A stretch of DNA of 64,000 bases from Methylocystis rosea (GTDB lineage: Bacteria; Pseudomonadota; Alphaproteobacteria; Rhizobiales; Beijerinckiaceae): the NCBI RefSeq assembly GCF_003855495.1, contig NZ_CP034086.1, positions 3,578,721 to 3,642,720 of the forward strand, given 5' to 3'. The first letter of the stretch is position 1. Each line of letters begins with the position of its first letter. Made by a program: the position numbers and the translations under genes. Positions 29,199 to 52,965 of the stretch are shown one piece after another. A model generated the notes under the pieces. The model saw nothing but the letters and a program-made list of their open reading frames with translations, was not told the origin of the DNA and did no database searches.

Positions 29199-29211
29199 GC
29201 GAACCGCCGCC

Positions 29212-29687: not shown

Positions 29688-29710
29688 AAACGCGAGAGGA
29701 ACGACTTGTC

Positions 29711-30239: not shown

Positions 30240-30251
30240 CAGGTTTCAGAC

Positions 30252-31667: not shown

Positions 31668-31680
31668 ACGGACATCGATC

Positions 31681-33490: not shown

Positions 33491-33492
33491 CC

Positions 33493-34844: not shown

Positions 34845-35087
34845 CCAGTTTCGTATTCTATCGCATGGTAGCGCAGTCTCTCGCGCCTTTGCGCGAGGGG
34901 ACCGCTAAGGGCGCGACAGCAACCGAAGGATTGCAGGATAAAAGAGACAGCCTGCGGCTTTCTCGGGCGGTCGTTTTGGTGTTGCTCGTCAACCTGTTCG
35001 CACAGGCTGCGCATTCGAGCCACAGCCTGTCGATTTCGACAAGCCGTTGCATTGACTCATCAAATTTCACCTCGTCGGACTGCTGCC
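34845..35087. other. Spacer before the relaxase gene, candidate oriT
   Basis: About 240 bases with no clear gene. It holds a 7-bp hairpin CTCGCGC-CTTT-GCGCGAG (34880-34897) about 190 bases before the relaxase start. In related elements oriT lies close to the relaxase gene, so this is where I would expect the nick site, but no nic consensus can be verified by eye. Confidence 0.4.
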
Positions 35088-36827
35088 ATGTCTCGTGAAG
35101 ACGAAATCAACATTCGTCCTGGCCGTATCCGATCGAAGGCGCCGGTAAAGGGGAAGAGCTTCGTTGCGCGCGTTCTCGCGGCGACGCAGAAGGCCGGCGG
35201 GCTGCATCGCTCTGGCGCGCACGGAAGTGGTCGTGGCGCCTTCGGGCGCGGCCGCGCCGCGAGCCTCGGCGCGCTGCGCGGTTTGAGTTCAGGGTCGCGT
35301 GGCGTGGTGGTCAAGGCGCGTGTGGTACGACACAGTCCGAAAGCCGCGCCGCTCTCCGCTCACCTTTCCTACCTTCGCCGCGACGGCGTCACTCGCGATG
35401 GCGCGCCGGGCAGAATGTTCGACGCTGCGAGCAACGAGGCAGACGCGCGCGCTTTCGCCGAACGCTGCCAGGAGGACCGACACCATTTTCGATTCATTGT
35501 CTCCCCAGATGACGCCCCCGAGCTCTCCGACCTTCGCGCCTTCACGCGCGATCTCATGGCGGAAATGTCGCGCGATCTCCGCACGACGATCGATTGGGTG
35601 GCGGTCGATCATTGGAACACCGAGCATCCACACATCCATGTTCTGGTTCGCGGACGAGCCGACGACGGCGGGGATCTGGTGATCAATCGCGACTATATCA
35701 GCCGGGGCTTCCGCGCCCGCGCCGAGCAGCTCGTCAATCTGGAGCTTGGTCCTCGCAGCGAGCAGGAAATCTGCCGCGCTCTGGAGAGGCAGGTCGACGC
35801 CGATCGCTGGACGCCGCTCGATCAAACCCTCGCACGCGAGGGCGCCCGCCATGACGGGATGATCGACCTACGACCTGTCGGCAACCGGGCTCAGGATGCC
35901 GAGCGAACCATGCTCGTCGCCCGCGCCCGCAAGTTGGAGAGACTCGGTCTCGCGGCATCGGCTGGCCTCGGACAATGGATCATGGCCGGGAACACGGAAA
36001 CGACGTTGCGCGCCCTCGGCGAGCGTGGCGACATCATCAAGCGCATCCATCGCGGCTTGAGCGAGCGCGGTCTTGATCGCGCCACAGCTGAATTCGTGCT
36101 CGACGCCGAGACGCGCGGCGATCCGATCATCGGCCGTCTTCTGTCTCGCGGCCTCGACGACGAGCTGAAGGGTTCCGCCTTCGCGATCATCGACGGCGTG
36201 GACGGCCGCACCCACCATGTCCGGCTCAAAGATCTCGACGCGACCAGCGACGCCGCTCCAGGCGCCATCGTCGAGGCAAGGCGCATTCCGTCACGCGACG
36301 GTGAATCGTCGCGGCTCGTCCTCGCCGTGCGCTCCGATCTCGCGCTTGCTGATCAAGTTCACGCGCCCGGCGCGACATGGCTCGATCGGCGCCTGGTCGC
36401 CAAGGGGGCGATGCTACTCTCCGAGAACGGTTTTGGTCGCGACGCACGGGACGCGCTGGAGGCTCGCACAGAGCATCTCGTCTCGGAAGGACTCGCGCGC
36501 CGACAAGGCCAGCGCGTCGTCTTCGCCCGCGACTTGCTCGATACGTTGCGGAACCGGGAACTCGACTCAGTCGGCGGGCGCATCGCCGCCGAAACCGGCC
36601 TCCCGCGCAACGCCGTCGCCGAGGGAGAAATCGTCGCCGGCGTCTACCGTAATCGCCTCACGCTCGCGTCCGGTCGCTTCGCCATGATCGACGACGGCCT
36701 CGGCTTCCAGCTCGTGCCCTGGTCGCCGTCGTTGGAGAAGGAAATCGGCAAGCAGGTTTCGGGCGTCATGTCGCCGGGCGGCAGCGTGGATTGGGGTTTT
36801 GGGCGCAAGCGTGGGATCGCAATGTAA
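35088..36827 (+). CDS. Relaxase, VirD2-like with DUF3363
   Basis: A 579-residue relaxase from ATG 35088. Residues about 75-230 form the relaxase domain: HLSYLRRDGVTRDG holds the likely nucleophile Tyr, and DHWNTEHPHIHVLVRG holds the HxH metal site. The rest is DUF3363 (VKARRI-like VEARRIPSRDGE, ARDALEARTEHLVSEGL). It nicks at oriT, stays on the 5' end and pilots the strand through the T4SS. RlxS-type relaxases of the ICEMlSym family have this length. Cargo genes are inserted just after it. Confidence 0.92.
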   Translation: MSREDEINIRPGRIRSKAPVKGKSFVARVLAATQKAGGLHRSGAHGSGRGAFGRGRAASLGALRGLSSGSRGVVVKARVVRHSPKAAPLSAHLSYLRRDGVTRDGAPGRMFDAASNEADARAFAERCQEDRHHFRFIVSPDDAPELSDLRAFTRDLMAEMSRDLRTTIDWVAVDHWNTEHPHIHVLVRGRADDGGDLVINRDYISRGFRARAEQLVNLELGPRSEQEICRALERQVDADRWTPLDQTLAREGARHDGMIDLRPVGNRAQDAERTMLVARARKLERLGLAASAGLGQWIMAGNTETTLRALGERGDIIKRIHRGLSERGLDRATAEFVLDAETRGDPIIGRLLSRGLDDELKGSAFAIIDGVDGRTHHVRLKDLDATSDAAPGAIVEARRIPSRDGESSRLVLAVRSDLALADQVHAPGATWLDRRLVAKGAMLLSENGFGRDARDALEARTEHLVSEGLARRQGQRVVFARDLLDTLRNRELDSVGGRIAAETGLPRNAVAEGEIVAGVYRNRLTLASGRFAMIDDGLGFQLVPWSPSLEKEIGKQVSGVMSPGGSVDWGFGRKRGIAM

Positions 36828-36852
36828 CGTTAGCCTCCAAATGCTTTTCTGC

Positions 36853-37779
36853 TCACTCTGCGGCGGGCAAAATGATTCTGGTGACGGTCAACGTTTTTAC
36901 CGCATGGATAAGGATGAAAACCTGATGTCCGGTAGAGAAAGATTCGGCGACGCATTCATGTCGGTCACCATTGCGATCAGTTAGTGCGATGGAGCGTTGA
37001 CCCGACGACCTTCGGCGTCCGAGCGGGATAAATGCACCTAGATCGTCGTCGGGTGTGTAGGCATCTTTCCACCCATACTGGCCAAATAACTCTGTGAATC
37101 TATTTGACTGGATTGGACGTCGGAGCGTGGCGCGAAATCCATCCCCCTCGATGAGCTCAGGCATATTCAGGACAACCACGGCGCAGGCGCGATGGCTTTT
37201 CGAGACGTATTGGCGAATCGCGGCATAGTTTGACGCATGAAAGCGCTTGGCTAAATTGACGGGCGTCCAAATCTCAAAGGCCTCGCCCTCGGCCATGTCG
37301 CAGAAGGTATCGAGTTGGAACAGCACTTCCGAGGCAAAAACATTGGCCTCGCGATCGAAAAGTTCGGCAGTCGCGGCATCAAGCGCTTTCTCGCAATCCT
37401 CGACAACCGCATACATAGGTCTTTGCCAGGGCAAAAACCCGTGACCGGCTTCATGCAAGCCCACAAACCGCTTCTTTACCGCCATTAAAGATTGACTCAA
37501 AAAGACCAAACCCTCAGAGGCGTGAAAGAGACCCAAGACCTTGCTGAGAGCTCGTTTGACAGCTTGGCCAGTCAGGCCTGCCTTCGCTCGAAGCTTCGCA
37601 ATAAAACTAGGATTGAGGACGTCTTCCTTGACTTCCCGAACACGGGCGACCGCCATGATTTTGTCGATCGGGGTTGGGAAGACACCGAGCGCGCCCGCTT
37701 CGCGCAGCGCACGCTCGGCCTCTTTGCGGACCCGGGCCAACTGGCCAGGCGTCAAACTCGAATCGTCTGGCCGTCGCAT
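36853..37779 (-). CDS. ImmA/IrrE-family metallopeptidase
   Basis: A 308-residue protein with the zinc site HEAGH (His109-Glu-Ala-Gly-His113) and third ligand Glu144 in DREANVFASEVL, as in ImmA and IrrE. The C-terminal half has no clear domain. Such proteases cleave a partner XRE repressor on a signal. The XRE gene lies three bases upstream in the same transcript. Both are divergent from the ubiquitin-like operon, so they probably form its derepression switch, as ImmR/ImmA does in ICEBs1; this role is inferred. Confidence 0.9.
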   Translation of the reverse strand: MRRPDDSSLTPGQLARVRKEAERALREAGALGVFPTPIDKIMAVARVREVKEDVLNPSFIAKLRAKAGLTGQAVKRALSKVLGLFHASEGLVFLSQSLMAVKKRFVGLHEAGHGFLPWQRPMYAVVEDCEKALDAATAELFDREANVFASEVLFQLDTFCDMAEGEAFEIWTPVNLAKRFHASNYAAIRQYVSKSHRACAVVVLNMPELIEGDGFRATLRRPIQSNRFTELFGQYGWKDAYTPDDDLGAFIPLGRRRSSGQRSIALTDRNGDRHECVAESFSTGHQVFILIHAVKTLTVTRIILPAAE

Positions 37780-37782
37780 CGA

Positions 37783-38163
37783 TCACCTGCGTTTGGAGCG
37801 AATGTAGTTGAGGTAATCGAGCAGCTCATTTTCTTCGCCGGCAGTGAGGTTATCGATAGAGAAGGTTGCGGCTCGGCCGTGTTTTATTCCTTCTGCACGA
37901 TTGGCGACGGGAACGATGTACCCCGCACGCTCCATCAGCGATTCATAAGCAACACCAAGAGCGGTCGATAGCGCATAGAGAATATGCGGCGACGGTTTTG
38001 TGATTTTTCCAGTCTCAAGTTGACTGAGATACGCATTGGACACTTCCTTTCCTGTCGCTTCTTCTACATCACGAAGCGACAATTGAGCGTCTTGCCGAGC
38101 CTTTCTTATAAATTGGCCAAGGTTGATTGCCTGTGGAGTTTCCATTGCTTCGTCATCTGGCAT
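37783..38163 (-). CDS. XRE-family repressor paired with ImmA/IrrE protease
   Basis: A 126-residue protein with an N-terminal helix-turn-helix (FIRKARQDAQLSLRDVEEAT, EVSNAYLSQLETG, about residues 13-50) and a short C-terminal domain. I start at ATG 38163, five bases after GGAG; earlier in-frame starts at 38193 and TTG 38208 are possible. It lies just right of the protease gene and is read away from the ubiquitin-like operon. It most likely binds the large inverted repeat 38228-38270 between the two transcripts. Confidence 0.87.
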   Translation of the reverse strand: MPDDEAMETPQAINLGQFIRKARQDAQLSLRDVEEATGKEVSNAYLSQLETGKITKPSPHILYALSTALGVAYESLMERAGYIVPVANRAEGIKHGRAATFSIDNLTAGEENELLDYLNYIRSKRR

Positions 38164-38227
38164 CGATGCTCCATTTTTGTGGTTTCCAGACATGGAGTCC
38201 GGCAGCAAAGAGCGTAATGCACCATCG

Positions 38228-38285
38228 CTAAGTCTGTCAAGCGCGCTAAATTAATGCTTGACAAACTTAGCGCGCGCGGTAAGAT
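38228..38285. promoter_or_regulatory. Divergent promoter and 15-bp inverted-repeat operator
   Basis: CTAAGTCTGTCAAGC (38228-38242) and GCTTGACAAACTTAG (38256-38270) are inverted copies, 14 of 15 matching, 13 bases apart. Each arm contains a TTGACA (-35) pointing outward. Rightward: TTGACA 38258-38263, 16-base gap, TAAGAT 38280-38285. Leftward: TTGACA at 38240-38235 with a weaker -10. A repressor bound here would cover both -35 boxes. Confidence 0.8.
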
Positions 38286-38326
38286 TAGCGAACGCTGGCG
38301 CTGTGCCGGCGACGCAGGAGATGACC

Positions 38327-39442
38327 ATGGAAAATGTCCCGGAGGCCGCGCTTGATCGCGGCGAGGCCCGTCACAAGATCGAAGTGGCGGATGAAACGCT
38401 GGCGTTCCGCGCAGTATGGATCGAGGACCTTACGCCCACGGGCTTTCAGCTCTCCGCAGCTGCGGGCTTTAAGCCAGCGCAGCAGGCGACAGTTCTTCAC
38501 ATCCTTCACGACGGTGAGCTGGAGGACGTCCGACCCAGCGAAGCGGTAGACCTACGCAATAGCGAGGGGCGCTTCGTGATCGTCGAGAGCGATCGCAGCT
38601 ATCGTCTGACGATCGACGGCGAGCGCTTCGATTGGCCATGTCGAATCGTATCGGGCGGACTGCTTCGGAAGCTTGGACGGGTGAGGCCCGACGAGAAAGC
38701 GATTTATCTTGAACGCTCCGACGAACCCGACCGCTTGATCGGCAATCACGATCTCGTGGACCTCGACGCGCGGGGAATTGAGTCCTTTGTCAGCCGCAAG
38801 CTCGCTTGGAAGCTGAATGTCCAGGGCGTGATCCTCGACGTGGCAACACCAACGATTGTGGTCGGGGACGCACTCACGCGGGCCGGCTTTGACCCCAATC
38901 AGGGCTGGCACATCTTTCTGAAGATCGAGGGCGAACCCAAGCGCGCGGTTGGTCTGACGGATACAATCGACTTGCGCACCCGGGGCATCGAGAAGCTTCG
39001 GCTGACGCCCAAGGAAGTCAACAATGGCGAAGCGCCTTCGGCGCCACGCCGTGACTTTGCGCTCCTTGAGATTGACGAAACACATCTCGACGACCTCGGC
39101 TTTCGCTGGGAGACAGTGATGGATGCAGGCCGCCGATGGCTCCTCATTCACCAATTCCCTGTTCCCGTCGGCTTCACGACGACGTGGACGCAGCTTGCGC
39201 TAGAGATCCCGCCTACTTATCCCGGGGCGCAGATCGATATGTTCTATACCTATCCGCCGCTAACGCTCGCGTCGGGTCGTGTTATCGAGTGCACCCATGT
39301 CTCGGCGACAATTGTCGGCGTGCCGTTCAACGGCTGGTCGCGTCATCGCGGCCCAGAATCGCCGTGGAACCCCTCAACTGATAATGTCGTGACGCATCTC
39401 GCGCTCGTCGAATCAGCCCTGGCAAAAGAGGTTGGCGAGTGA
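38327..39442 (+). CDS. Tandem ubiquitin-like (3x) - E2-like fusion protein
   Basis: A 371-residue protein. I start at ATG 38327, six bases after AGGAG; an earlier in-frame TTG at 38258 is the promoter -35 box. Residues about 14-90, 91-159 and 160-230 are three ubiquitin-like repeats, the last two ending alike (LVDLDARGIESF, TIDLRTRGIEKL), matching the Multiubiquitin family. Residues 243-371 match the prokaryotic E2 family E: LEIDETHLDDLGFRWE, IPPTYPGAQIDMFY, WSRHRGPESPWNPS, THLALVE. Only two cysteines exist, Cys105 in Ubl2 and Cys322 in the E2-like part. The repeats are internal, so none has a free Gly-Gly tail. First gene of the operon; it overlaps the JAB-E1 gene by four bases. Confidence 0.9.
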   Translation: MENVPEAALDRGEARHKIEVADETLAFRAVWIEDLTPTGFQLSAAAGFKPAQQATVLHILHDGELEDVRPSEAVDLRNSEGRFVIVESDRSYRLTIDGERFDWPCRIVSGGLLRKLGRVRPDEKAIYLERSDEPDRLIGNHDLVDLDARGIESFVSRKLAWKLNVQGVILDVATPTIVVGDALTRAGFDPNQGWHIFLKIEGEPKRAVGLTDTIDLRTRGIEKLRLTPKEVNNGEAPSAPRRDFALLEIDETHLDDLGFRWETVMDAGRRWLLIHQFPVPVGFTTTWTQLALEIPPTYPGAQIDMFYTYPPLTLASGRVIECTHVSATIVGVPFNGWSRHRGPESPWNPSTDNVVTHLALVESALAKEVGE

Positions 39443-40842
39443 TCCCGGAGACGACGCTAGCCCTCAGCGGCGTCCTGCACGAACGCATCCAGGCCCATCT
39501 CTTCCCCGGAGATGGGCTCGAAGCAGCTGCGATCCTGCTGTGCGCAAGAACGCCGGGACCGAGGCTGCGCTTGCTCGTGCAGGATGTCGTTCTCATTCCG
39601 CATGAAGCCAGCCAGCGCAGGGAACGAGACGCGATCACCTGGCCGGGCGCGTATATGGAAGAAGCGATAGATCATGGCGAGTCAGAGCGCCTCGCATTGG
39701 TTCTGATCCATTCACACCCGGGCGGGCTATTCGCCTTTTCGGAATTGGATGACGAAAGCGATCAGCACGTGTTGCCCTGCGTGTTCAACGCATTTGGCGA
39801 TCTGCACGGCTCGGCGATCATGATTCCGAGCGGGGCGATCATGGCCCGCATTTACGAGGCTGATCTCATTGCGAAACCAGTGGATCTCGTGACGGTCGCC
39901 AATCACGATTTGAGCTACTGGTGGGAGGCCGATGCCGGATCGACCCGCTCATTACGCCGACCGGTCGCATTAACCAGCGGCATGGTTGACGAACTCGGTC
40001 GCTTGTCCGCAGCGGTAATCGGTGTATCGGGCACGGGCTCCATTGTCGCCGAGCAACTCGCCCGTCTAGGATTCGGGCACATCAAGCTGATCGACTTCGA
40101 TCGCATCGAGCATCGCAATCTCAATCGCATCTTGAATTCCAAGCTCAGCGATGTCGACGCACACCGACTCAAGGTGGAGATGTGTACGGACGCAGTCGCC
40201 AGCTACAGGGGTGGTGGAGTCGCCGAGGCTGTGCCGGCCTCGGTGCTGACGCGCGAGGCGGTGCTCGCGGCGAGTCAATGCGACGTGCTTTTCTGCTGCG
40301 TCGACACCCTCGAAGCTCGACAGATTGCGGACCTTCTTGCCGCGGCGTTCCTCATTCCACTTCTCGATGTCGGCGTCGTAATTCCCACCCGTAAAGGAGA
40401 CGAGGGCGCCACCATCGCCGACGTGTGCGGCCGTATCGACTATGTGCAGCCGGGGCGGTCCTCGCTTCGAGATCGAGGAGTTTATTCGCCAGAAAGCCTT
40501 CGAGCAGCGTATCTCCAGCGGGCGGCGCCGGAAGCGCATCGGCAGGAGCGCGAAGCTGGGTATATTAAAGGGCTGATCGAAGAAGCGCCGGCAGTCATTA
40601 CATTGAACATGCGTGCGGCCGCAGCTTGTGTGAATGAGTTCATCGCCCGCGCCTACCCATTTCGGCTAGAGTCGAATGATCTTTATGCCCGCACCGAATT
40701 CAGCCTCGCAGCGTGCGAGGAGGAATACGTAGCGGAGGAGGCCTTCGTTCCGTCGGCGAATCCGATTCTGGGACGCGGCGCGCTTGAACCACTCCTTGGA
40801 CTACCTGTTCTCAGGCCGGCACGAGTTGGAGCTTCACGATGA
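39439..40842 (+). CDS. JAB isopeptidase - E1 (ThiF) fusion
   Basis: A 467-residue fusion. Residues 1-150 form a JAB/JAMM domain with Glu28, His91, His93, Ser101 and Asp104 (HSHPGGLFAFSELDD), a complete zinc site. Residues 170-410 form a ThiF/E1 adenylation domain: nucleotide loop AAVIGVSGTGSIVAEQL, LIDFDRIEHRNLNR and DVLFCCVDTLEARQ. Where relatives often have a PG-x-x-CLxC cysteine pair, this one reads QPGRSSLRDRG; the nearest cysteine is Cys330 (ADVCGRID). The E1 part should activate the ubiquitin-like tail and the JAB part cleave or process it. ATGA coupling with both neighbours. Confidence 0.91.
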   Translation: MIPETTLALSGVLHERIQAHLFPGDGLEAAAILLCARTPGPRLRLLVQDVVLIPHEASQRRERDAITWPGAYMEEAIDHGESERLALVLIHSHPGGLFAFSELDDESDQHVLPCVFNAFGDLHGSAIMIPSGAIMARIYEADLIAKPVDLVTVANHDLSYWWEADAGSTRSLRRPVALTSGMVDELGRLSAAVIGVSGTGSIVAEQLARLGFGHIKLIDFDRIEHRNLNRILNSKLSDVDAHRLKVEMCTDAVASYRGGGVAEAVPASVLTREAVLAASQCDVLFCCVDTLEARQIADLLAAAFLIPLLDVGVVIPTRKGDEGATIADVCGRIDYVQPGRSSLRDRGVYSPESLRAAYLQRAAPEAHRQEREAGYIKGLIEEAPAVITLNMRAAAACVNEFIARAYPFRLESNDLYARTEFSLAACEEEYVAEEAFVPSANPILGRGALEPLLGLPVLRPARVGASR

Positions 40843-41170
40843 GCATTGCAATTTGGTGGCGAAATATTTGGGTGCGCATTGCGCCGCCTCGACATGTGCG
40901 AGTCGTGGAGGGCGACAGCTTGCCATAAAGTTGCCACGACGCGATCTGGTGCTCGCACGCGACGGCGATGAGGATTGGTGCATCGGGATGCGTTGCCCTT
41001 GTGGCTGTGGCCGAACCATCGAGCTGTTGGTAATCCCCGAAGCGACGCCGCGCTGGGATTTTAGCGTCGACAACAAGGGCCGGCCGAGCCTCTCACCGTC
41101 GGTGTGGCTTCAAAAAGGCTGCCACTCGCATTTTTGGTTGAGGAATGGCCGTGTCGAATGGTGCGACTGA
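40839..41170 (+). pseudogene. DUF6527 family protein with a frameshift
   Basis: ATG 40839 overlaps the JAB-E1 stop (ATGA) and has GGAG eight bases upstream. It reads MSIAIWWRNIWVRIAPPRHV, VVEGDSLP and then TAA (40926). One frame over, the protein goes on KLPRRDLVLARDGDEDWC, MRCPCGCGRTIELLVI, PSLSPSVWLQKGCHSHFW to 41170, the DUF6527 family that accompanies polyubiquitin-like operons. One base appears lost near 40925-40928 (2 bases where 3 are expected). The likely zinc-binding residues CPCGC and the final GC-x-SHFWLR-x-GRVEWC are intact. Alternatives are a sequencing error or translation from an internal TTG (40784, 40853) inside the E1 gene. Confidence 0.75.
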
Positions 41171-41191
41171 GGCTTGCGCGTCGAAACAGTT

Positions 41192-42130
41192 TCAGTCGTC
41201 ACGTTTCCCCAACGTCAGTAACGTATAGCTCTCTCGAACAACGGCGCCGTTACGAAGTATCCGCTTTACGTGCACGCGCGCGTCCGCATCCACATTTACC
41301 CAGTCCCGATTGAATTGCGTGAGTTGATCAGTTGTTAGAGCCCGATCAACTTTGCCGCGTATCGTTCCGCGATCAGGGCCGGCTCGGAATTCGAACTGAT
41401 GCGCGTCGGGAAGCACGCCTGCGAGCTGACCTTGTAAGGTCTCATCCGTATCCTCGACCGTCGTCGACGTGGCGCGTTCGGCGGCGCGCGCGACCGCTTC
41501 GGCTCCGAAGCTTCGATCAGTTTCGCCCGCGACGAGGCGAAGCGTCGCGCCGCTCTGGCGCATGAGGTCAAAGAACTCGCGCGCTGTCCCCAGCACTCTT
41601 TGATCGATGGTCTCGACGGCCGAGCGGAACTGCTCTTCGTCGGGCTCTCCAAACGCGTCAAGAAGTTTGGTCGCTTCGTCGACGGCAACCTTGAGAGGGG
41701 TTTCCATCAATTGCTGCTGCGGTCGAACCTCCTCCATCAGGAAGCCGAACGAGCCGCGCACGATGTTCGTGATGTGCAGCGTCGATGCGCCCTTGTTGGG
41801 AACGATCCCGCGTTGACCAAGGCCGCCGGTCTCGTGCGCTAGAACCTTTGCGACAATGTCTTGAAACTTGGTGACAGCTGCGCCCGCGAATTCGCTTTCT
41901 ATTCCACGCGCGCCGATGACGGGGCGACCACCAAAGAATAGGGCGGCCGAGGCAGTCGGCCCATCTTTGGCTGGGTCCAGTTGGGCAATCGTCTGCTGAA
42001 GTTCCTCAAGGCGCGCTTCCAGCCCTAGGCGCGCCATCACATCCTCATCGCCCAGTTGCTCTAACAGAGCCGATACGGCGGCTATATCCGCGTGGACGAA
42101 GTCGCGCTCGAGCTTACGCAGGGTGCTCAT
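41192..42130 (-). CDS. Hypothetical protein, partner of DUF6932 protein
   Basis: A 312-residue soluble protein I do not recognise. It begins with a helical region (about 1-55, LEQLGDEDVMARLGLEARLE), then a central domain with SGATLRLVAG-type strands, and a C-terminal domain (residues 245-312) that reads like a small beta barrel (TIRGKVDRALTTDQLTQF, ARVHVKRILRNGAVVRESY). No signal peptide or membrane helix. It overlaps the upstream DUF6932 gene by four bases, so the two form one operon. The end converges on the DUF6527 gene. Confidence 0.7.
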   Translation of the reverse strand: MSTLRKLERDFVHADIAAVSALLEQLGDEDVMARLGLEARLEELQQTIAQLDPAKDGPTASAALFFGGRPVIGARGIESEFAGAAVTKFQDIVAKVLAHETGGLGQRGIVPNKGASTLHITNIVRGSFGFLMEEVRPQQQLMETPLKVAVDEATKLLDAFGEPDEEQFRSAVETIDQRVLGTAREFFDLMRQSGATLRLVAGETDRSFGAEAVARAAERATSTTVEDTDETLQGQLAGVLPDAHQFEFRAGPDRGTIRGKVDRALTTDQLTQFNRDWVNVDADARVHVKRILRNGAVVRESYTLLTLGKRDD

Positions 42131-42723
42131 GGGTTGGCTCCTCCAGCGGCGCTTGTCAGGATCGGGCTAGGACCCAGCGCAGCAAGCGCGGCCATATCAT
42201 CTGAGGTGTCCTCAAGTCTGACCTGGAGCATTCCCTTCCAGAGATCGTCGCCGCGCCGATGCGAGAACAGTCCGAGCCAGTAACGCGTTACATTCACAAG
42301 GGTCTCACTTGTCCCATCTAGATCGGCAGCGAAAAAGTCGAGATGAAATGTCGCTCTGACGTGATGCCGAGCAAAAAGGTTCAGGTTGGCTCGCATCAGC
42401 CCCGCCAACTCGTTCCGGTCATTTATACCCGCCGGCCTGTAAAGGAATGTCACGACATCGAGATCTTGGGGATCTTTGTTCTCGACAAAACTCCCGTCGA
42501 GCCATTGAAATCCTCGATCGAAACCAATGCCGCGCAAGGCGGCGCGATGACTGAGCCATCCGCGAAGGATCGCCCTTCGCTGGTCTGTTAATGCGAAAGA
42601 AGCCACAACCTCAAGCGCAGAGACAGTGTAGGGCGACATGTCTTCGGCCGCGCCGCCAGGACCATCTGGTCCGACATAGGGCGGCAGAACGCCGTCGATC
42701 GTGAATGTCGGAATGGGCATCAA
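42127..42723 (-). CDS. DUF6932 family nucleotidyltransferase-like protein
   Basis: A 198-residue protein. GSFVENKDPQDLDVVTF (about residues 76-92) fits the Gly-Ser...Asp-x-Asp signature of the nucleotidyltransferase fold, and the N-terminus (FTIDGVLPPYVGPDGPGG) suits DUF6932. A third acid may lie in FHLDFFAAD. Such minimal nucleotidyltransferases often work with a second protein in toxin-antitoxin or defence units; here the partner would be the 312-residue protein encoded next. Function is inferred from fold and context only. Confidence 0.75.
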   Translation of the reverse strand: MMPIPTFTIDGVLPPYVGPDGPGGAAEDMSPYTVSALEVVASFALTDQRRAILRGWLSHRAALRGIGFDRGFQWLDGSFVENKDPQDLDVVTFLYRPAGINDRNELAGLMRANLNLFARHHVRATFHLDFFAADLDGTSETLVNVTRYWLGLFSHRRGDDLWKGMLQVRLEDTSDDMAALAALGPSPILTSAAGGANP

Positions 42724-42971: not shown

Positions 42972-44996
42972 ATGTCCGCCAGCCGCATCCTGTGGGGTCA
43001 GATCCTCGTCGTCTTCACGATCGTGCTCGCGACCACATGGGGCGCGACACAATGGACGGCGTGGCGGCTGGCGTTCCAGCCCGAGTTGGGTCCGACCTGG
43101 TTTTCCCTCGCCTCGTGGCCGATGTATCCCCCGCCTGCATTCTTCTGGTGGTGGTATCATTTCGACGCCTATGCGCCGAGCATTTTCGTCGAAGGCGCCG
43201 TCATCGCCGCGTCGGGTGGATTCGCATCAATCGCCGTCGCCATCGGCATGTCGGTTCATAGGGCGCGCGAAGCCAAGAATGTCGTCACTTATGGTTCGGC
43301 GCGCTGGGCGACGGCAAGCGAGGTGCGCAACGCCAACCTGCTCGATCCAAATGGCGTCGTGCTGGGACGATTCGACGACGACTATCTTCGCCACGATGGA
43401 CCGGAGCATGTCTTATGTTTCGCGCCTACCCGATCGGGCAAGGGCGTCGGCCTTGTCGTGCCGACGCTGCTCACCTGGCCGGGCTCGGCGATCGTTCATG
43501 ACATCAAGGGCGAGAACTGGGGTCTGACCGCCGGCTGGCGGGCGCGATTTGGACGCGTCATGCTGTTCGATCCGACGAACTCAAATTCATGCCCCTACAA
43601 TCCGTTGCTGGAAGTGCGACGTGGGGCGGCAGAGGTACGCGATGTTCAAAACGTCGCCGATATTCTCGTCGATCCCGAAGGCGCGCTCGAACGGCGAAAT
43701 CACTGGGAGAAAACCAGCCACTCGCTGCTTGTCGGCGCGATCCTGCATGTCCTCTATGCGGAAGCCGACAAGACGCTTGCCGGCGTCGCCAATTTCCTGT
43801 CGGACCCCAAACGCCCAATCGAGACGACGCTGCGCGCCATGATGACGACGGCGCATCTTGGCGACGCCGGACCGCATCCCGTCGTGGCATCAACCGCGCG
43901 CGAACTCCTGAACAAATCCGAGAACGAGCGTTCCGGCGTCCTGTCGACCGCCATGTCGTTCCTGGGACTTTATCGCGATCCTGTCGTAGCGCAGGTGACG
44001 CGCCGCTGCGACTGGCGGATCGACGATGTCGTGTCGGCGAGGCGGCCGGCGACACTCTACCTCGTCGTCCCACCCTCGGACATTTCTCGCACCAAACCGC
44101 TGGTGCGCTTGGTGCTCAACCAGATCGGTCGCCGCCTGACAGAGGAGCTGGATGCAAAGACGCGACGCCATCGCCTGCTGTTGATGCTCGACGAATTCCC
44201 TGCGCTCGGGCGGCTCGACTTCTTCGAGTCCGCGCTCGCCTTCATGGCCGGCTATGGTCTCAAAAGCTTTCTCATCGCGCAATCACTCAATCAGATCGAA
44301 AAGGCCTATGGGCCGAACAATGCGATCCTCGATAATTGTCATGTACGCGTTTCCTTCGCCACCAATGACGAACGCACAGCCAAGCGCGTGTCCGACGCGC
44401 TGGGAACCGCGACAGAAATCCGCGACGCGCGCAACTATGCCGGCCACCGTCTGTCGCCGTGGCTCGGCCATCTCATGGTGTCGCGCCAAGAGACAGCGCG
44501 ACCGCTGCTCACGCCAGGCGAAGTGATGCAACTTCCGCCTTCGGACGAGCTAGTGCTCGTCTCCGGGCTTGCGCCGATTCGAGCGAAGAAGGCGCGCTAT
44601 TTCGAGGACCGACGACTGGCCGGCCGAATCCTGCCGCCACCCGATCTCTATCGAGCCGAACCAAACATCGTGGTGGGCGAAAAGTCACCGCGCGATCTAC
44701 AGGACGATTGGAGCAATCTGGTCTTACCCGCCAACGCAACGGCAGTTCAGAAGCAATCCGTCACGAAACGATCGGATGATAAGAATTCGGCCAATGGCGG
44801 AATTCGTCGCGAACCCGAGATTCCGGAGTACGAGGCCATCGCCCCCGAGACGCCGCCCTCCGCTCAGTCGCTGGACGATGCGCCGCCCGAAGAACCCGAC
44901 GACGAGGAGGCCATCCGCGCCCGCGCGCTCCGCAGTCGCATCCGCGCCGTCGTGCGCCAAGCTTCGATGGATCCCGACGACGGAATAGCCCTGTGA
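42972..44996 (+). CDS. traG: Type IV coupling protein TraG/VirD4
   Basis: A 674-residue ATPase from ATG 42972. Two N-terminal membrane helices (about 8-28 and 70-95) precede the Walker A APTRSGKGVGLVV and Walker B LLLMLDEFPALGRL, with the TraG phrase AIVHDIKGENW. It hands the relaxase-DNA complex to the T4SS. The open frame begins upstream of 42972, but the first membrane helix suits this start. The C-terminal 80 residues are acidic. CopG gene follows after 7 bases. Confidence 0.94.
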   Translation: MSASRILWGQILVVFTIVLATTWGATQWTAWRLAFQPELGPTWFSLASWPMYPPPAFFWWWYHFDAYAPSIFVEGAVIAASGGFASIAVAIGMSVHRAREAKNVVTYGSARWATASEVRNANLLDPNGVVLGRFDDDYLRHDGPEHVLCFAPTRSGKGVGLVVPTLLTWPGSAIVHDIKGENWGLTAGWRARFGRVMLFDPTNSNSCPYNPLLEVRRGAAEVRDVQNVADILVDPEGALERRNHWEKTSHSLLVGAILHVLYAEADKTLAGVANFLSDPKRPIETTLRAMMTTAHLGDAGPHPVVASTARELLNKSENERSGVLSTAMSFLGLYRDPVVAQVTRRCDWRIDDVVSARRPATLYLVVPPSDISRTKPLVRLVLNQIGRRLTEELDAKTRRHRLLLMLDEFPALGRLDFFESALAFMAGYGLKSFLIAQSLNQIEKAYGPNNAILDNCHVRVSFATNDERTAKRVSDALGTATEIRDARNYAGHRLSPWLGHLMVSRQETARPLLTPGEVMQLPPSDELVLVSGLAPIRAKKARYFEDRRLAGRILPPPDLYRAEPNIVVGEKSPRDLQDDWSNLVLPANATAVQKQSVTKRSDDKNSANGGIRREPEIPEYEAIAPETPPSAQSLDDAPPEEPDDEEAIRARALRSRIRAVVRQASMDPDDGIAL

Positions 44997-45003
44997 GCTG
45001 CCC

Positions 45004-45835: not shown

Positions 45836-46822
45836 GTGGCAGTTCACTCTCACAATCCAGAAGCGATTTCGCGCGGTGCGCGCATGCTGCGCACGGCCTT
45901 GGGGCCGCAGATCGCCCGATGGCTCGACGACGACAGCGTCGTCGAAATCATGCTCAATCCCGACGGGAGACTCTGGCTCGATCGGCTGACGAGCGGATTG
46001 GAAGAGGCGGGCGCGCGCCTCTCGCCGGAAGACGGCGAACGCATCATTCGGCTCGTTGCGCACCATGTCGGCGCCGAGGTTCATCCCGGCGCGCCGCGCG
46101 TCTCGGCGGAGCTGCCGCTAACAGGCGAGCGCTTCGAGGGATTGCTGCCGCCCGTCGTCGCGGCGCCGGTCTTCGCCATTCGCAAACCGGCGGTCGCTGT
46201 CTTCACGCTTGATGACTATGTCGCCGCCGGAATCATGAGGCCGCGGCAGGCGGCGATCCTGCGCGCCGCTGTCGTCGAGCGAAGCAATATTCTCGTCGCG
46301 GGCGGCACCTCGACTGGCAAGACGACGCTCGTCAACGCGTTGCTCGCGGAAGTCGCCAAGACGAATGATCGCGTTGTTCTGATCGAAGACACGCGCGAGC
46401 TGCAATGCGTCTCGCGGAACCTCCTGGCGCTGCGCACGAAAGAAGGCGTCGCATCGCTCTCCGAGCTCGTCCGCTCATCGCTGCGCCTACGGCCCGACCG
46501 CATTCCGATTGGTGAAGTGCGCGGCAGCGAAGCCCTCGATTTGTTGAAAGCATGGGGAACCGGACATCCGGGCGGCGTCGGCACGATCCACGCCGGTTCG
46601 GCGCTCGGCGCGCTCCGCCGCCTCGAACAACTCATCCAGGAAGCCGTCATCACCGTTCCGCGCGCGATGATCGCCGAGACGATCCAGATTATCGCCGTGC
46701 TGGCGGGTCGCGGCGACAACCGCCGGCTCATCGAACTCGCCGCCGTTCAGGGCCTGACCGAATACGGCGACTACGCGCTCGCCGATCTCACCCATCTCAA
46801 CCTCGGAGAAGAGCATGAATAG
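45836..46822 (+). CDS. trbB: T4SS ATPase TrbB (VirB11-like)
   Basis: A 328-residue secretion ATPase. Walker A is [14 protein letters not shown], the Asp box [10 protein letters not shown], the Walker B-like [12 protein letters not shown] and the His box [15 protein letters not shown], all present. It powers pilus assembly and DNA transfer at the inner membrane. The start is GTG 45836 after AGGGGCGAAT. The trbC ATG overlaps its last eight bases. First gene of a ten-gene transfer operon. Confidence 0.95.
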
Positions 46823-47138
46823 GATTTTGGCTCGCAAACGCTCTGCCGTTGGCGCTCTCATTATCGGCGTCGCGGTACTTTCGACTCCGGTCTTCGCCGC
46901 CGGCTCCAACATGCCCTGGGAGCAGCCGCTCCAGCAGATCCTGCAATCAATCGAAGGACCGGTCGCCAAGATCGTCGCGGTAATCATCATCATCACCACG
47001 GGCCTGACGCTCGCCTTCGGTGACACATCGGGCGGCTTTCGGCGGCTGGTGCAAATCGTCTTTGGTCTCTCCATCGCCTTCGCCGCGTCGAGCTTCTTCC
47101 TCTCCTTCTTCTCGTTCGGCGGCGGAGCGCTGATCTGA
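46815..47138 (+). CDS. trbC: Conjugative pilin TrbC
   Basis: A 107-residue prepilin with a long signal peptide (cleavage near VFAA, about residue 30) and two membrane helices (about 55-73 and 80-103). TrbC/VirB2 subunits are trimmed by TraF (gene at 33493) and polymerise into the pilus. It overlaps trbB by eight bases and trbD by one. Confidence 0.93.
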   Translation: MNRILARKRSAVGALIIGVAVLSTPVFAAGSNMPWEQPLQQILQSIEGPVAKIVAVIIIITTGLTLAFGDTSGGFRRLVQIVFGLSIAFAASSFFLSFFSFGGGALI

Positions 47139-47422
47139 TGGAGAACTTGCCTCTTCAAAATGGCGGCTCGGTCGTGGGCTTTCGCGTTCCCGTCCATCGC
47201 GCCCTGACCGAGCCGATCCTGCTCGGCGGCGCGCCCCGGGCCATCGCCATCCTCAACGGTACGCTCGCTGCGGCGCTCGGTCTTGGTCTGCGGCTCTGGA
47301 TCGCCGGGCTCGCCTTCTGGGTCGTGGCGCAATTTGCCGCCGTCTGGGCGGCGAAGCGCGATCCCGACTTCGCCGAAGTCGTGCGCCGGCATCTGCGCTA
47401 CCCCGCACATCTTGGCGCTTGA
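47138..47422 (+). CDS. trbD: TrbD (VirB3-like) T4SS protein
   Basis: A 94-residue inner-membrane protein with a typical start (VVGFRVPVHRALTEPILLGG, RAIAILNGTLAAALGLGL) and a hydrophobic hairpin (about 40-80). TrbD/VirB3 links the pilin pathway to the TrbE ATPase. Spacing in the operon is one base overlap before and 12 bases after. Confidence 0.92.
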   Translation: MENLPLQNGGSVVGFRVPVHRALTEPILLGGAPRAIAILNGTLAAALGLGLRLWIAGLAFWVVAQFAAVWAAKRDPDFAEVVRRHLRYPAHLGA

Positions 47423-47434
47423 GGAGAGGCGTTG

Positions 47435-49870
47435 ATGCTGAACCTCGCCGAATATCGCAAGAAGCCGCAAAGCCTCGCCGACTTCCTGCCATGGGCGGCG
47501 CTGGTCGCGCCCGGCGTCGTGTTGAACAAGGACGGCTCTTTCCAGCGGACCGCGCGGCTTCGCGGGCCGGACTTGGACAGCGCAACGCCGGCCGAACTTG
47601 TCGGCGCGACGGCCCGCTTGAACAATGCGCTGCGGCGTCTTGGCTCCGGATGGGCGATCTTTGTCGAGGCGCAGCGCAATCCAGCGCAGCATTATCCCGT
47701 AAGCCGCTTTCCAGATCCCGTCTCGGCGCTGGTCGACGAAGAGCGCAGGGCGCAGTTCGAAGAGGAAGGCGCGCATTTCGAGAGCTGCTATTTTCTGACC
47801 CTCGTCTATTTGCCGCCGGAAGACGACGCGGCCGGCGCCGAGAGCTGGCTCTATGAGGGACGCGCCTCTGGCGACTCGCCACGCGCGATGCTTGCCGGCT
47901 TTATCGATCGTACCGATCGCCAGATGCAGCTGATCGAAGGCTTCGCGCCAGAAGCCGAATGGCTCTCCGACGCCGAGACTCTGACCTATCTCCATTCCTG
48001 CGTCTCGACCAAGCGCCACAATGTGCACGTTCCCGAGACGCCGATGCATCTCGACGCGATCCTCGTCGACGAACCGTTGACCGGCGGCCTCGAGCCGCGT
48101 TTGGGGAGCGCGCATCTGCGCACCCTCACCATCATGGGCTTTCCCTCCGCGACCTATCCGGGCGTCCTCGACGAACTCAATCGGCTCGCCTTTCCCTATC
48201 GCTGGTCGACGCGGGCGCTCACTCTCGACAAGAGCGACGCCACGAAAGTCCTCACCCGCATCCGCCGACAATGGTTCGCCAAGCGCAAATCGATCTTCGC
48301 CATCCTCAAGGAGGTGATGACCAATGAAGCCTCGGCGCTGGTCGACACCGACGCCCATAACAAGGCGTTAGACGCCGACGCCGCGCTGCAGGATCTCGGC
48401 TCCGATCTCATCGGCGAAGCCTATGTGACGGCGACGCTGACCGTCTGGGACCATGACCCGCGCCTCGCCGACGAAAAGCTGCGCCTCGCCGAGAAGGTGA
48501 TTCAGGGCCGAGATTTCACCTGCATGGCCGAGACGGTGAACGCCATCGAGGCCTGGCTTGGCTCGCTTCCCGGACATGTCTACGCCAATGTCCGTCAACC
48601 GCCGGTCTCGACGCTGAACCTCGCCCATATGATCCCGCTCTCGGCGGTCTGGGCCGGGCCGCTGCAGGATGCGCATCTTCACGCGCCGCCGCTGTTCTTC
48701 GCGCGAACGGAAGGATCGACGCCGTTTCGCTTCTCGCTGCATGTCGGCGATGTCGGCCATACGCTGATCGTCGGACCGACCGGCGCCGGCAAGAGCGTGC
48801 TGCTGTCGCTAATGGCGCTGCAGTTTCGGCGCTACCAAGATTCTCAGATTTTCATCTTCGATTTCGGGGGATCGGCGCGGGCCGCGACGCTCGCCATGGG
48901 CGGCGACTGGAACGATCTCGGCGGCTCGCTCAATGACGACGCCATCGATCCGGTCTCCCTGCAGCCGCTGGCGCGCATAGATGAAGTCGCCGAGCGCGCC
49001 TGGGCGGCCGACTGGATCGCCGCCATTCTCGCCCGCGAAAATGTCAGCGTCACGCCCGAGGTCAAGGAACATCTTTGGACGGCGCTTGGCTCCCTCGCGT
49101 CAGCGCCAGTTATTGAGCGCACCCTCACCGGCCTTTCGGTCCTTCTGCAATCGAATGCGCTTAAGCGGGCGCTGCAACCTTTTTGTCTTGGCGGGCCGCA
49201 TGGACGGCTTCTCGATGCGGAGGCCGAAGTTCTGGGCGCTGGCGACATCCAAACCTTCGAGACCGAAGGCCTGATTGGCTCATCGGCCGCGCCCGCCGTT
49301 CTCGCCTATCTCTTTCATCGTATCGAAGGCCAACTCGACGGGTCGCCAAGCCTCATCATTATCGACGAAGGCTGGCTCGCCCTCGACGACAAGGGCTTTG
49401 CCAGCCAGTTGCGCGAATGGCTGAAAACCCTACGCAAGAAGAACGCTTCCGTCGTCTTCGCCACACAGTCGCTCGCCGATATCGAAACGAGCCCCATTGC
49501 GCCGGCGATCGTCGAGAGCTGCCCGACGCGCTTGTTCCTGCCGAATGAACGCGCCTTCGAGCCGCAGATCGCCGCCATCTATCGCCGCTTCGGCTTGAAC
49601 GACCGCCAGATCGAGATCATCGCGCGGGCGACGCCAAAGCGCGACTACTACTGCCAATCGCGGCGGGGCAATCGATTGTTCGAACTGGGTCTCGGTCCCC
49701 TGGCGCTGGCGCTCTGCGCGGCGTCCTCAAAGACAGATCAAAAACTCATCTCCGGGCTCCTTGCCGAATATGGCCGTGACGGTTTTGCGCGCGCCTGGTT
49801 CGTCGCCCGCGGCCTCGTCTGGGCGGCCGATCTTCTCACCCAACAAAACGAACTGGAGGCCGCGTCATGA
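47435..49870 (+). CDS. trbE: T4SS ATPase TrbE (VirB4-like)
   Basis: An 811-residue ATPase from ATG 47435 (GAGGAG nine bases before; a TTG one codon earlier is less likely). Walker A is GPTGAGKSVLLSLM and Walker B LIIIDEGWLAL; the C-terminal domain has VVFATQSLADIE. It drives pilin dislocation and substrate transfer. Length is normal. trbJ overlaps its stop by four bases. Confidence 0.95.
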   Translation: MLNLAEYRKKPQSLADFLPWAALVAPGVVLNKDGSFQRTARLRGPDLDSATPAELVGATARLNNALRRLGSGWAIFVEAQRNPAQHYPVSRFPDPVSALVDEERRAQFEEEGAHFESCYFLTLVYLPPEDDAAGAESWLYEGRASGDSPRAMLAGFIDRTDRQMQLIEGFAPEAEWLSDAETLTYLHSCVSTKRHNVHVPETPMHLDAILVDEPLTGGLEPRLGSAHLRTLTIMGFPSATYPGVLDELNRLAFPYRWSTRALTLDKSDATKVLTRIRRQWFAKRKSIFAILKEVMTNEASALVDTDAHNKALDADAALQDLGSDLIGEAYVTATLTVWDHDPRLADEKLRLAEKVIQGRDFTCMAETVNAIEAWLGSLPGHVYANVRQPPVSTLNLAHMIPLSAVWAGPLQDAHLHAPPLFFARTEGSTPFRFSLHVGDVGHTLIVGPTGAGKSVLLSLMALQFRRYQDSQIFIFDFGGSARAATLAMGGDWNDLGGSLNDDAIDPVSLQPLARIDEVAERAWAADWIAAILARENVSVTPEVKEHLWTALGSLASAPVIERTLTGLSVLLQSNALKRALQPFCLGGPHGRLLDAEAEVLGAGDIQTFETEGLIGSSAAPAVLAYLFHRIEGQLDGSPSLIIIDEGWLALDDKGFASQLREWLKTLRKKNASVVFATQSLADIETSPIAPAIVESCPTRLFLPNERAFEPQIAAIYRRFGLNDRQIEIIARATPKRDYYCQSRRGNRLFELGLGPLALALCAASSKTDQKLISGLLAEYGRDGFARAWFVARGLVWAADLLTQQNELEAAS

Positions 49871-50610
49871 ATCGCAGTCGTTTACCTATCTCCGCAAGCC
49901 GCCTCGTGCTCGCTCTAGCGCTGTCCCTCGCGCCGCTTGGGGCGACGCGCGCGCAGTTCATGGTGTTCGACCCGAGCAATTACGCCCAGAACGTGATGAC
50001 GGCGGCGAATACGCTGCAGCAGATCAACAATCAGATCACCAGCCTCCAGAACGAGGCGACGATGATCATGAATCAGGCGCGCAACCTCGCCAATCTTCCC
50101 TATTCGTCGCTGCAGACGATCCAGCAATCGATCGCGCAGACGCAACAGCTTCTGCATCAGGCCCAGCGCATCGCCTATGACGTCCAACAGATCGATCAGG
50201 CGTTCTCGACGCATTATGGCGCGGCGAATGCATCGATGAGCTCGGCGTCGCTGATCGATGGCGCTCGGCAGCGCTGGCAGAACTCTCTCGCGGGATTCCA
50301 GGACGCGCTGCGCGTTCAGGCCGGCATCGTGCAGGGCGTCGAGACCGCCCGCTCGGAAGCAAGCGCGCTGATCTCATCCAGCCAATCGGCCGTCGGCACC
50401 CTGCAGGCCTCCCAAGCCGGCAACCAGCTGCTCGCCCTGCAAAGCAAGCAACTCGCCGATGTGACGGCGCTGCTCGCCTCGCACGGCCGCGCCCAGTCGC
50501 TGGAGATGGCGCGCAGCGCGCAAGCGCAGGAACAGGCGCGCGAGCAAATGCGCCGCTTCATTGCCCCCGGCCAGGCCTATCAGCCCGGCAATGTGTCCAT
50601 GTTCCATTGA
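49867..50610 (+). CDS. trbJ: TrbJ (VirB5-like) T4SS protein
   Basis: A 247-residue exported protein with a signal peptide (cleavage near TRAQ, about residue 32) and long Gln/Asn-rich helices (ANTLQQINNQITSLQNEAT). TrbJ is the minor pilus component and may act in cell contact and entry exclusion. It overlaps trbE by four bases. Confidence 0.93.
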   Translation: MNRSRLPISASRLVLALALSLAPLGATRAQFMVFDPSNYAQNVMTAANTLQQINNQITSLQNEATMIMNQARNLANLPYSSLQTIQQSIAQTQQLLHQAQRIAYDVQQIDQAFSTHYGAANASMSSASLIDGARQRWQNSLAGFQDALRVQAGIVQGVETARSEASALISSSQSAVGTLQASQAGNQLLALQSKQLADVTALLASHGRAQSLEMARSAQAQEQAREQMRRFIAPGQAYQPGNVSMFH

Positions 50611-50625
50611 TTGAGGCGCGCCGAG

Positions 50626-51024
50626 ATGAAAATCGAAGATTGGATCGCTCCCGAAAATATTGGCCTCATCGCGCTCGGTGTCGTGATCGGCGCCATCGCT
50701 CTTGTCGGCGTCGAGGCGGCCTGCGACGCCGACGTGGCGGCGAGAGCGCAATCGTCGTCGAATTTGCTCACGGGCGCGCCAGTCGGAGCGCCTCGGATCG
50801 ACGAAGAGATGCTACGCTGCGCGACGCTCCCGATTGAACAGGCGGACGATCCCAAATGCCGCGCTCTTTGGGCCGAGCAGCGGCGGAAATTCGTCGCGCC
50901 GCCGCCCGAGCCCGCCGACGACGCGGCAAAGCCGCTCGACATGTTCCCCTCGGCGCCGCGCGCGCTCGAAAAGCCCGCGCCGACGACTGCGCCCAAATCT
51001 TCGCTATCACCCAGGAGCGAATGA
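50626..51024 (+). CDS. trbK: Entry exclusion protein TrbK-alt
   Basis: A 132-residue protein from ATG 50626 with one N-terminal membrane helix (about 14-32) and the block LRCATLPIEQADDPKCRALW then AEQRRKF, the paired-Cys signature of the TrbK-alt family. It lies between trbJ and trbL as expected. It likely blocks transfer into cells that already hold the element. Confidence 0.87.
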   Translation: MKIEDWIAPENIGLIALGVVIGAIALVGVEAACDADVAARAQSSSNLLTGAPVGAPRIDEEMLRCATLPIEQADDPKCRALWAEQRRKFVAPPPEPADDAAKPLDMFPSAPRALEKPAPTTAPKSSLSPRSE

Positions 51025-51028
51025 CGTC

Positions 51029-52282: not shown

Positions 52283-52965
52283 TGTTTAAACGCTCTTCCA
52301 TTCGCTACGGGCGAACGCCCGAACCCGAAACGCCTTACCAAAAAGCAGCGCAAGTCTGGGACGAGCGCATCGGCTCGGCGCGCGTCCAGGCGAAGAACTG
52401 GCGGCTGATCGCGCTCTGTAATCTCTTTCTCGCCGGCGGCCTCGCCATCGCGCTCGTCTGGCAGGGCGCGCGTGGCTCGATCGTTCCCTGGGTGGTGCAG
52501 GTCGATAAGATCGGCGAAGCGCAGGCGATCGCGCCAGCCGTCGCCGACTACAAGCCGACCGATCCGCAGATCGCCTGGCATCTCGCGCGCTTCGTCGAAA
52601 ATGTGCGCGCCATCCCTTCCGACCCCATCATCGTTCGCCAGAACTGGCTGAAGGCCTATGATTTCGCCACCGACAAGGGCGCGCTGGCCCTAAACGATTA
52701 CGCCCGCGCCAACGATCCCTTCGCCAGGATCGGACAAATCCAGATCGCCATTGAGGTCGCCAGCGTCATTCGCGCCTCGAACGATTCCTTTCGCGTCGCC
52801 TGGACCGAGCGCCGCTACGAGAACGCCAGCCTTGCCGCGACCGAACGCTGGACCGCCATCCTCACCATCGTCGTTCAGCCGCCGCGTGACGCCGAGCGCC
52901 TCCGCAAAAATCCGCTGGGCGTTTTCATCCACGCCGTCAACTGGTCGAAGGAACTCGGACAATGA
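52282..52965 (+). CDS. trbF: TrbF (VirB8-like) T4SS protein
   Basis: A 227-residue protein with one N-terminal helix (about 37-55) and a periplasmic NTF2-like domain (VVQVDKIGEAQAIAPAV, VAWTERRYENASLAATERW, NPLGVFIHAVNWSKEL). It scaffolds the channel. One-base overlap with trbL and four-base overlap with trbG. Confidence 0.94.
   Translation: MFKRSSIRYGRTPEPETPYQKAAQVWDERIGSARVQAKNWRLIALCNLFLAGGLAIALVWQGARGSIVPWVVQVDKIGEAQAIAPAVADYKPTDPQIAWHLARFVENVRAIPSDPIIVRQNWLKAYDFATDKGALALNDYARANDPFARIGQIQIAIEVASVIRASNDSFRVAWTERRYENASLAATERWTAILTIVVQPPRDAERLRKNPLGVFIHAVNWSKELGQ

Follow-up and report, generated by a model that had tools for sequence, protein, structure and literature searches.

What is encoded by the coupled genes at positions 38327-41170 of a 64,000-nucleotide stretch of Methylocystis rosea DNA (contig NZ_CP034086.1, positions 3,578,721 to 3,642,720; hereafter the window), and what might they do for the mobile element that carries them? 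The likely answer is a damage-inducible Bub conjugation module (bacterial ubiquitination-like; type 6e of the 2006 catalogue) with a CapH+CapP-like regulator, carried as cargo of a conjugative element which we take to be Tn4371-like. An anti-phage action of the operon is plausible. The operon, including three ubiquitin-like (Ubl) domains, comprises the following features.

38327..39442, plus strand: BubAB, with Ubl1 at about amino acids (aa) 14-90, Ubl2 at 92-158, Ubl3 at 160-234 and an E2-like domain at 246-368 (Pfam, PDB phmmer, fold of a homologue).
39023..39031, plus strand: Asn233-Gly234-Glu235, the predicted cut between the mature Ubl tail and the E2 domain (conservation, PDB construct ends).
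39439..40842, plus strand: BubCD, a JAB peptidase (aa 13-116) fused to an E1 ThiF domain (183-314) (Pfam, PDB).
40839..41170, plus strand: DUF6527 gene with an interrupted frame, the first frame at 40839-40928 and the domain in another frame to 41170 (translations, homologues, sister element L009).

Every domain family named in the original prediction, which was made from the letters of the window alone, was recovered by Pfam above curated cut-offs: three Multi_ubiq stretches and Prok-E2_E in the first product, Prok-JAB and ThiF in the second, and DUF6527 in the third stretch. Against the PDB, BubAB matched 9d59 (Citrobacter BubA) with an E value of 2.7e-80 and 9eav_D with 5.5e-32 by phmmer, while BubCD matched 9ea4 (Citrobacter BubCD) with 3.4e-150, the matches covering nearly the full length of both proteins. 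Because both BubAB and BubCD match solved Citrobacter Bub proteins, the locus is identified as a Bub locus. The Citrobacter pathway (PDB 9ea4, 9ea5, 9ea8, 9eae, 9eav, 9d59, 9d5a) has three Ubls, the E2-like domain, the JAB-E1 fusion and the NG|E junction in common with the window, whose third gene, in contrast, is broken. Both the Ubl-E2 fusion and the downstream DUF6527 recur on a Citrobacter freundii plasmid, and the Synechocystis pSYSX locus has the gene order of the window with the genes unfused. The predicted fold examined, that of P0001, a homologue 99% identical to BubAB, matches Ubl folds and BubB. For the E2 domain, the comparison with eukaryotic UBC folds gave a match to BubB among hits that were mostly Ubl folds.

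This operon type was catalogued in 2006 by Iyer, Burroughs and Aravind as type 6e, described in the excerpted text as a polyUbl, a Cys-less E2/RWD-like domain that is sometimes fused, a JAB-E1 protein and a small metal-binding protein Y, in operons that are sporadic and mobile (PMC1779556). The window shows tandem Ubls, a fused Prok-E2_E domain lacking the cysteine, a JAB-E1 protein with intact motifs, and DUF6527 following the E1 gene, present as a gene though its frame is interrupted. The pattern of protein Y is printed in the excerpt as C-x(3)-C-x(35-38)-H-x(2)-C (PMC1779556), whereas DUF6527 shows the pattern C-x3-C-x37-C-x2-H; its conservation rows comprised 71 loci plus P0121. Judged by operon position and the Cys/His pattern, DUF6527 appears to be protein Y, probably a zinc-binding accessory. 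Excerpts of a 2026 paper report a survey of 544 Bub operons (PMC13373217). With the 2006 catalogue, this survey and the BubA, BubB and BubCD structures in the PDB, the earlier view that such operons are far less characterised is out of date; the architecture has been known since 2006, and its novelty is low. The comparison drawn with other bacterial Ubl systems was apt, as the logic of Ubl, E1, E2 and JAB-family deubiquitinase is shared with BilABCD, which the excerpted source describes as four genes with a two-Ubl protein (PMC11354881). The window nevertheless falls outside BilABCD, with fused genes, three Ubls and no conserved E2 cysteine.

A peptide-pattern scan of genome contigs yielded 76 Bub loci, of which 75, at least half the length of BubAB, gave 76 BubAB rows together with the window. 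The scan patterns GIEK[LI]RLTP and WKLNVQGV both lie in Ubl3, which means that part of the conservation seen there comes from the selection itself; neither the NG|E/D junction nor the E2 domain falls within the patterns. Asn233-Gly234 is invariant in all 76 rows, followed by E in 74 and D in two, and NG stands at the junction in 120 of the 120 closest homologous proteins. In the PDB, BubA constructs stop and BubB constructs start at the equivalent of the NG|E junction, numbered BubA 155-228 in 9ea8 and BubB 234-361 in 9eae, as though pieces of one longer protein. Among the split operons of the genus, the Ubl gene terminates in ...EG-stop in L085 and L086; a Ubl match was not seen in L089. With the fused gene of the Citrobacter freundii plasmid, these features suggest that BubAB is made as a precursor and cleaved behind Gly234. 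Nine open frames of 230-295 aa occur among the 76 loci, at least one of them cut by a contig end and their Ubls uncounted; shorter BubAB forms with fewer Ubls may exist.

The conserved E2 active-site cysteine that a canonical E1-E2 thioester cascade would use was not found, the best Cys columns reaching 23, 17 and 11 of the 76 rows, while W337, S338, R339, W347 and D352 of the E2 domain are present in every row. This pattern points to a transfer route that may dispense with the cysteine thioester. An oxyester intermediate is a tentative possibility for Bub and forms no part of this argument. In BubCD (71 rows: 70 of the 76 loci, at least 85% of the length, plus the window), the JAB motif H91-S-H93...S101..D104 is intact in the window, and HSHP, S101, D104 and GSGTGS are conserved. 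Within E1 segment 308-352 no Cys is invariant, the best column being C330 (49/71 rows). Residue 58, in the JAB half, is Ser in the window and Cys in 68 of the 71 rows.

It is in the third gene that the copy in the window departs from its relatives. Coupling by ATGA overlaps had been claimed for all three genes; this holds for the second overlap (40839-40842), whereas the first, at 39439-39442, is GTGA. The ATGA at 40839-40842 starts a frame of 29 codons that ends with TAA at 40926-40928, and the DUF6527 domain lies in a different frame, so the toolkit taken to be complete-looking lacks the three open frames of a complete Bub operon. All 12 DUF6527 homologues examined read through this stretch, as does sister element L009, and the downstream frame differs from that of L009 by 15 synonymous and 6 replacement codon differences over 78 codons. 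Because the homologues and L009 are open and the replacement differences are few, the interruption is either recent or an assembly error.

The loci derive mostly from Alpha-, Beta- and Gammaproteobacteria, with single records from Phycisphaeraceae and Nitrospira, class assignments that we presume from organism names. The predicted gene order recurs among them: DUF6527 directly follows BubAB-BubCD in 69 of 71 loci with at least 400 nucleotides (nt) after BubCD, the exceptions being L060 and L084. Within the genus, 6 of 39 genomes contain Prok-E2_E, two with a frame of fused size. Across 397 genomes of the order, taken from a larger group, it occurs in 15, with a DUF6527 match within about 3 kb in 14 of these and 20 kb off in G176, while DUF6527 occurs in 46. 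Plasmid records with a BubCD relative number 85, and 47 of these are typed as conjugative; a search of phage records with BubCD gave no relative. On a Methylocystis rosea plasmid (L135), a split Bub operon lies amid AbiV, AbiJ-NTD4 and AbiEi/AbiEii genes and a DNA methyltransferase, a setting that favours defence without proving it. In another split Bub operon, the gene after DUF6527 (L087:5741-6664) encodes a ClpP-like serine protease of the SDH type.

When the operon is expressed is best indicated by a feature that the original prediction overlooked, the divergently transcribed CapH+CapP-like pair.

36853..37779, minus strand: CapP-like metallopeptidase of the Peptidase_M78/IrrE type, reading HEAGH (Pfam PF06114, E 2.7e-6; PADLOC capP, E 1.9e-13).
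37783..38208, minus strand: CapH-like XRE repressor (Pfam HTH_3, E 6.8e-11; PADLOC capH, E 2e-7).
38226..38272, no strand: predicted operator between the divergent genes, an inverted repeat with 17-bp arms (one mismatch) and a 13-bp spacer (shuffles, conservation).
38258..38285, plus strand: promoter-like TTGACA-N16-TAAGAT for the Bub operon (sequence).

The two regulatory genes are adjacent and match the capH and capP profiles, although HTH_VI (E 2.6e-8) ranks above capH in the PADLOC scan of the CapH-like protein. A mirrored TTGACA lies on the minus strand from 38240, and the palindrome, which scores 14, whereas the best of 20 shuffles reached 9, spans both TTGACA boxes. Its core, GTCAAGC-N8-16-GCTTGAC, stands upstream of 13 of 22 CapH-linked operons (HTH match with E < 1e-20 and at least 150 nt of upstream sequence) and of none of 53 others; it occurs 14 times in all 1,315,630 bases of the loci. 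A CapH/CapP relative, one or both, is found in 23 of the 68 loci that extend 2 kb or more upstream, a CapK+CapS-like pair by position in 8 and a WYL protein in 2, the CapK, CapS and WYL labels resting on query proteins picked by position or WYL domain rather than on Cap profiles. In two Citrobacter plasmid operons the upstream pair, taken by position as CapK+CapS, is unlike the CapH+CapP of the window; it is annotated hypothetical/ATP-binding and winged-helix/DNA-binding. The Synechocystis pSYSX locus and a Bradyrhizobium plasmid locus (L094) carry divergent HTH and ImmA/IrrE genes. As in known CapH+CapP systems, an XRE repressor and an M78 peptidase thus stand divergent from an immune-type operon, here Bub and not CBASS. 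That linkage is already reported in the excerpts of the 2026 paper, where 219 of the 544 Bub operons carry CapW or CapH+CapP and CapP is activated by single-stranded DNA (ssDNA) (PMC13373217); a further excerpt describes ssDNA activating the cleavage of CapH by CapP (PMC10904395).

The conjugative setting between a relaxase and traG, as first proposed, is confirmed by the genes that flank the block.

35052..36827, plus strand: RlxS-type relaxase, bounding the cargo interval on the left (Pfam DUF3363/Relaxase; NCBIfam relax_RlxS, E 4.9e-172, 574 bits, the curated cut-off of 850 not being reached).
41192..42130, minus strand: uncharacterised 312-aa protein, convergent with the operon.
42127..42723, minus strand: DUF6932 protein (Pfam PF22014, E 2.1e-27; PADLOC PDC-M63A, E 2.1e-11).
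42972..44996, plus strand: TraG coupling protein, bounding the cargo interval on the right (Pfam; NCBIfam IncP-type TraG, 1217.9 bits).
45836..55174, plus strand: trb-type conjugation cluster with T2SSE ATPase, TrbE, TrbL, VirB8, CagX and TrbI (Pfam, NCBIfam).

RlxS, an IncP-type TraG and a trb cluster are the features common to Tn4371-like integrative and conjugative elements, and all are present here, RlxS below its curated cut-off. The last base of the window is the end of its contig (C1). No tyrosine integrase was found near the window, the nearest PF00589 match on C1 lying more than 300 kb away, and the PF07508 large serine recombinases, encoded at C1:9518 and C1:17007, would be close to the window only on a circular C1. 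The convergent pair at 41192-42723 on the minus strand closes the cargo. The 312-aa protein, which had no Pfam, PADLOC or NCBIfam match, was found in two of the 397 order-level genomes; relatives of both proteins lie near Bub in 5 of 65 loci (L009, L016, L026, L032, L033). The DUF6932 protein reads GS...DxD, presumably a nucleotidyltransferase-like motif.

The interval between relaxase and TraG behaves as a site of variable content. For 20 more TraG relatives with high scores in the genus, the region on the 5' side was surveyed, and the relaxase was located in 19, L120 being too short. The gap measures 48-163 nt, and is thus empty, in 11 of these sister elements, and 1,506-6,645 nt with other cargo in 8. 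The Bub queries were unmatched in all 19 stretches and matched in L090 (the same locus as L009), where the gap is 6,141 nt. The other cargo includes a SIR2-like protein with an LmuB-like ATPase (L111:5618-10448), a GNAT acetyltransferase (L112) and, in the scanned cargo of L113, L121, L123, L125 and L129 (L114 unscanned), a hydrolase-like protein, regulators, a transposase and a DUF1254/DUF1214 protein. L009 aligns to 28229-32751 at 91% identity and to 33012-49427 at 90%. Within this alignment 36.75-39.75 kb is 98-99% identical, against 78-96% in other 500-base blocks, and synonymous divergence (dS) is 0.014-0.030 for CapP, CapH and BubAB, against 0.32-0.54 for RlxS and TraG. The identical tract and low dS suggest that the left half of the cargo, CapP-CapH-BubAB, was probably exchanged recently. 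Across the six intact cargo genes the ratio of nonsynonymous to synonymous divergence (dN/dS) is 0.10-0.32, a sign of constraint.

From these parts a working of the module may be proposed. CapH would occupy the predicted palindrome at 38226-38272 and repress both divergent promoters, until ssDNA arising from damage, phage or conjugation activates CapP and CapH is cut, as shown for CapH/CapP elsewhere. The BubAB precursor would be cut after Gly234, which would separate the E2-like domain from a protein of three Ubls that ends in ...Asn-Gly. Adenylation of the Gly234 tail would fall to the E1 half of BubCD, and the E2-like domain, with its invariant Trp-Ser-Arg, may help to pass the Ubl to a target without the usual cysteine thioester. 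The JAB half, its motif being intact, could remove or trim the Ubl, and DUF6527 would act on the same Ubl/E1 machinery, a step that the frame interruption has probably removed in this genome. The benefit would be a damage- or invader-triggered protein modification that may include phage defence. The conjugative setting supports the mobile part of the mobile-defence hypothesis, and phage defence is plausible; the excerpted text of the 2026 paper states that protection by Bub against phage is not demonstrated (PMC13373217).

Several observations weigh against the proposal. A conjugate, a target or a phage effect cannot be shown by sequence, and the null result in phage records carries no information on defence. 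The exact operator core is absent from 9 of the 22 CapH-linked loci, and none of the sought regulators appears in 35 of the 68 loci with sufficient upstream sequence. CapH, its operator and the ssDNA control are predictions at this locus. A sequence search of the PDB gave no chain for the CapP-like protein, and the dN/dS of that protein is computed from six differences. In the split operons L087 and L088, a frame assigned as Ubl from its position extends beyond a Gly. The search for PDB folds like the DUF6527 model gave no usable match. In each of the five split operons examined, DUF6527 lies behind the E1 gene, and it is therefore not specific to the fused junction. In the E1 domain Cys287 is nearly invariant (70/71 rows); it precedes the conserved Asp289 in a stretch that we take to resemble the structural D-C-x-D of ThiF/MoeB, and would accordingly be structural. 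The interrupted third gene may also leave the copy in the window impaired.

This last point raises the possibility, doubtful yet the best-surviving of the alternatives, that the cargo is decaying in this genome and that the frame loss of DUF6527 has already disabled the system. The frame is indeed interrupted in what is the regular third gene of the family. BubAB and BubCD are intact, however, with dN/dS values of 0.19 and 0.16 against L009; the preponderance of synonymous differences in the downstream frame means that any loss is recent, and a sequencing error could itself account for the interruption.

It is also conceivable, though rather unlikely, that the operon serves not in phage defence but as a stress-response or addiction module, in which damage-triggered modification and demodification of host proteins stabilise the element. 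Addiction, or protection against invasive replicons, was proposed in the excerpted text of the 2006 paper (PMC1779556). The SIR2-like protein and LmuB-like ATPase in the same interval of L111 argue against this alternative, as do the AbiV, AbiJ-NTD4, AbiE and methyltransferase genes around the split Bub operon of the Methylocystis rosea plasmid.

Improbable by comparison is the suggestion that the E2-like domain is a Ubl-binding, RWD-like module and that the Ubl acts by polymerising, with no covalent conjugation. It draws on the missing E2 cysteine, on the term inactive E2/RWD-like applied in 2006 to a domain without that cysteine (excerpts of PMC1779556), and on PDB titles describing multi-ubiquitin filaments of Citrobacter and Methylobacterium. 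It would nevertheless leave the invariant Gly tail, the intact E1 and the intact JAB motif without a clear role, and the title of a separate 2026 Bub paper, seen in a reference list, mentions protein conjugation. A sulphur-transfer or cofactor system of the ThiS/ThiF kind is very improbable. Weak matches of the E1 domain to ThiF/MoeB models, all below their cut-offs, speak for it, but no metabolic partner appears among the nine scanned proteins of the block, and in its combination of JAB-E1, multi-Ubl and E2 the locus agrees with Bub.

DUF6527 also occurs beyond the Bub architecture, and the analysis covered 11 regions, most of them scoring high, in which a DUF6527 match lacks an adjoining E2_E. 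An E1-like gene lies directly upstream of DUF6527 in nine of them, L107 and L108 being the exceptions; the JAB model found no match in these 11 regions, and four scanned E1s of the nine carry DUF6791 and ThiF without JAB. All eight Ubl-like frames examined (L098-L104, L106), with L097 contributing none, end in Thr-x-x-Ser and not in Gly; five of the eight are recognised by Ubl models, one by Pfam Multi_ubiq alone and two (L100, L106) by position. DUF6527 and DUF6791 are named nowhere in the literature searched, which did not include the main Bub papers. Very tentatively, DUF6527 could be a shared, usually obligatory part of two architectures, E2_E/JAB-E1 with Gly-tailed Ubls and DUF6791-E1 with Thr-x-x-Ser tails, and possibly an enzyme with an unrecognised fold that uses zinc to process Ubls or to select targets.

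Elsewhere in the window, two Ser/Thr protein kinases adjoin a PP2C phosphatase at 17074-20286 on the minus strand, one scanned kinase matching PADLOC PD-T4-6 models (E 1.2e-54), possibly as a generic kinase match. HlyD-type adaptor and AcrB-type pump genes are adjacent at 6475-10745, with an outer-membrane efflux protein at 14227-15759.

Read as a Bub conjugation module, the locus places a regulated Bub system in the cargo site of a conjugative element. Its conserved palindrome and invariant Asn-Gly|Glu/Asp junction provide specific, quickly testable predictions, and the interruption of the third gene gives concrete form to the question of what role DUF6527 plays. If the joint reading of the two DUF6527 architectures is true, bacterial ubiquitin-like tagging would also run with tails other than glycine.

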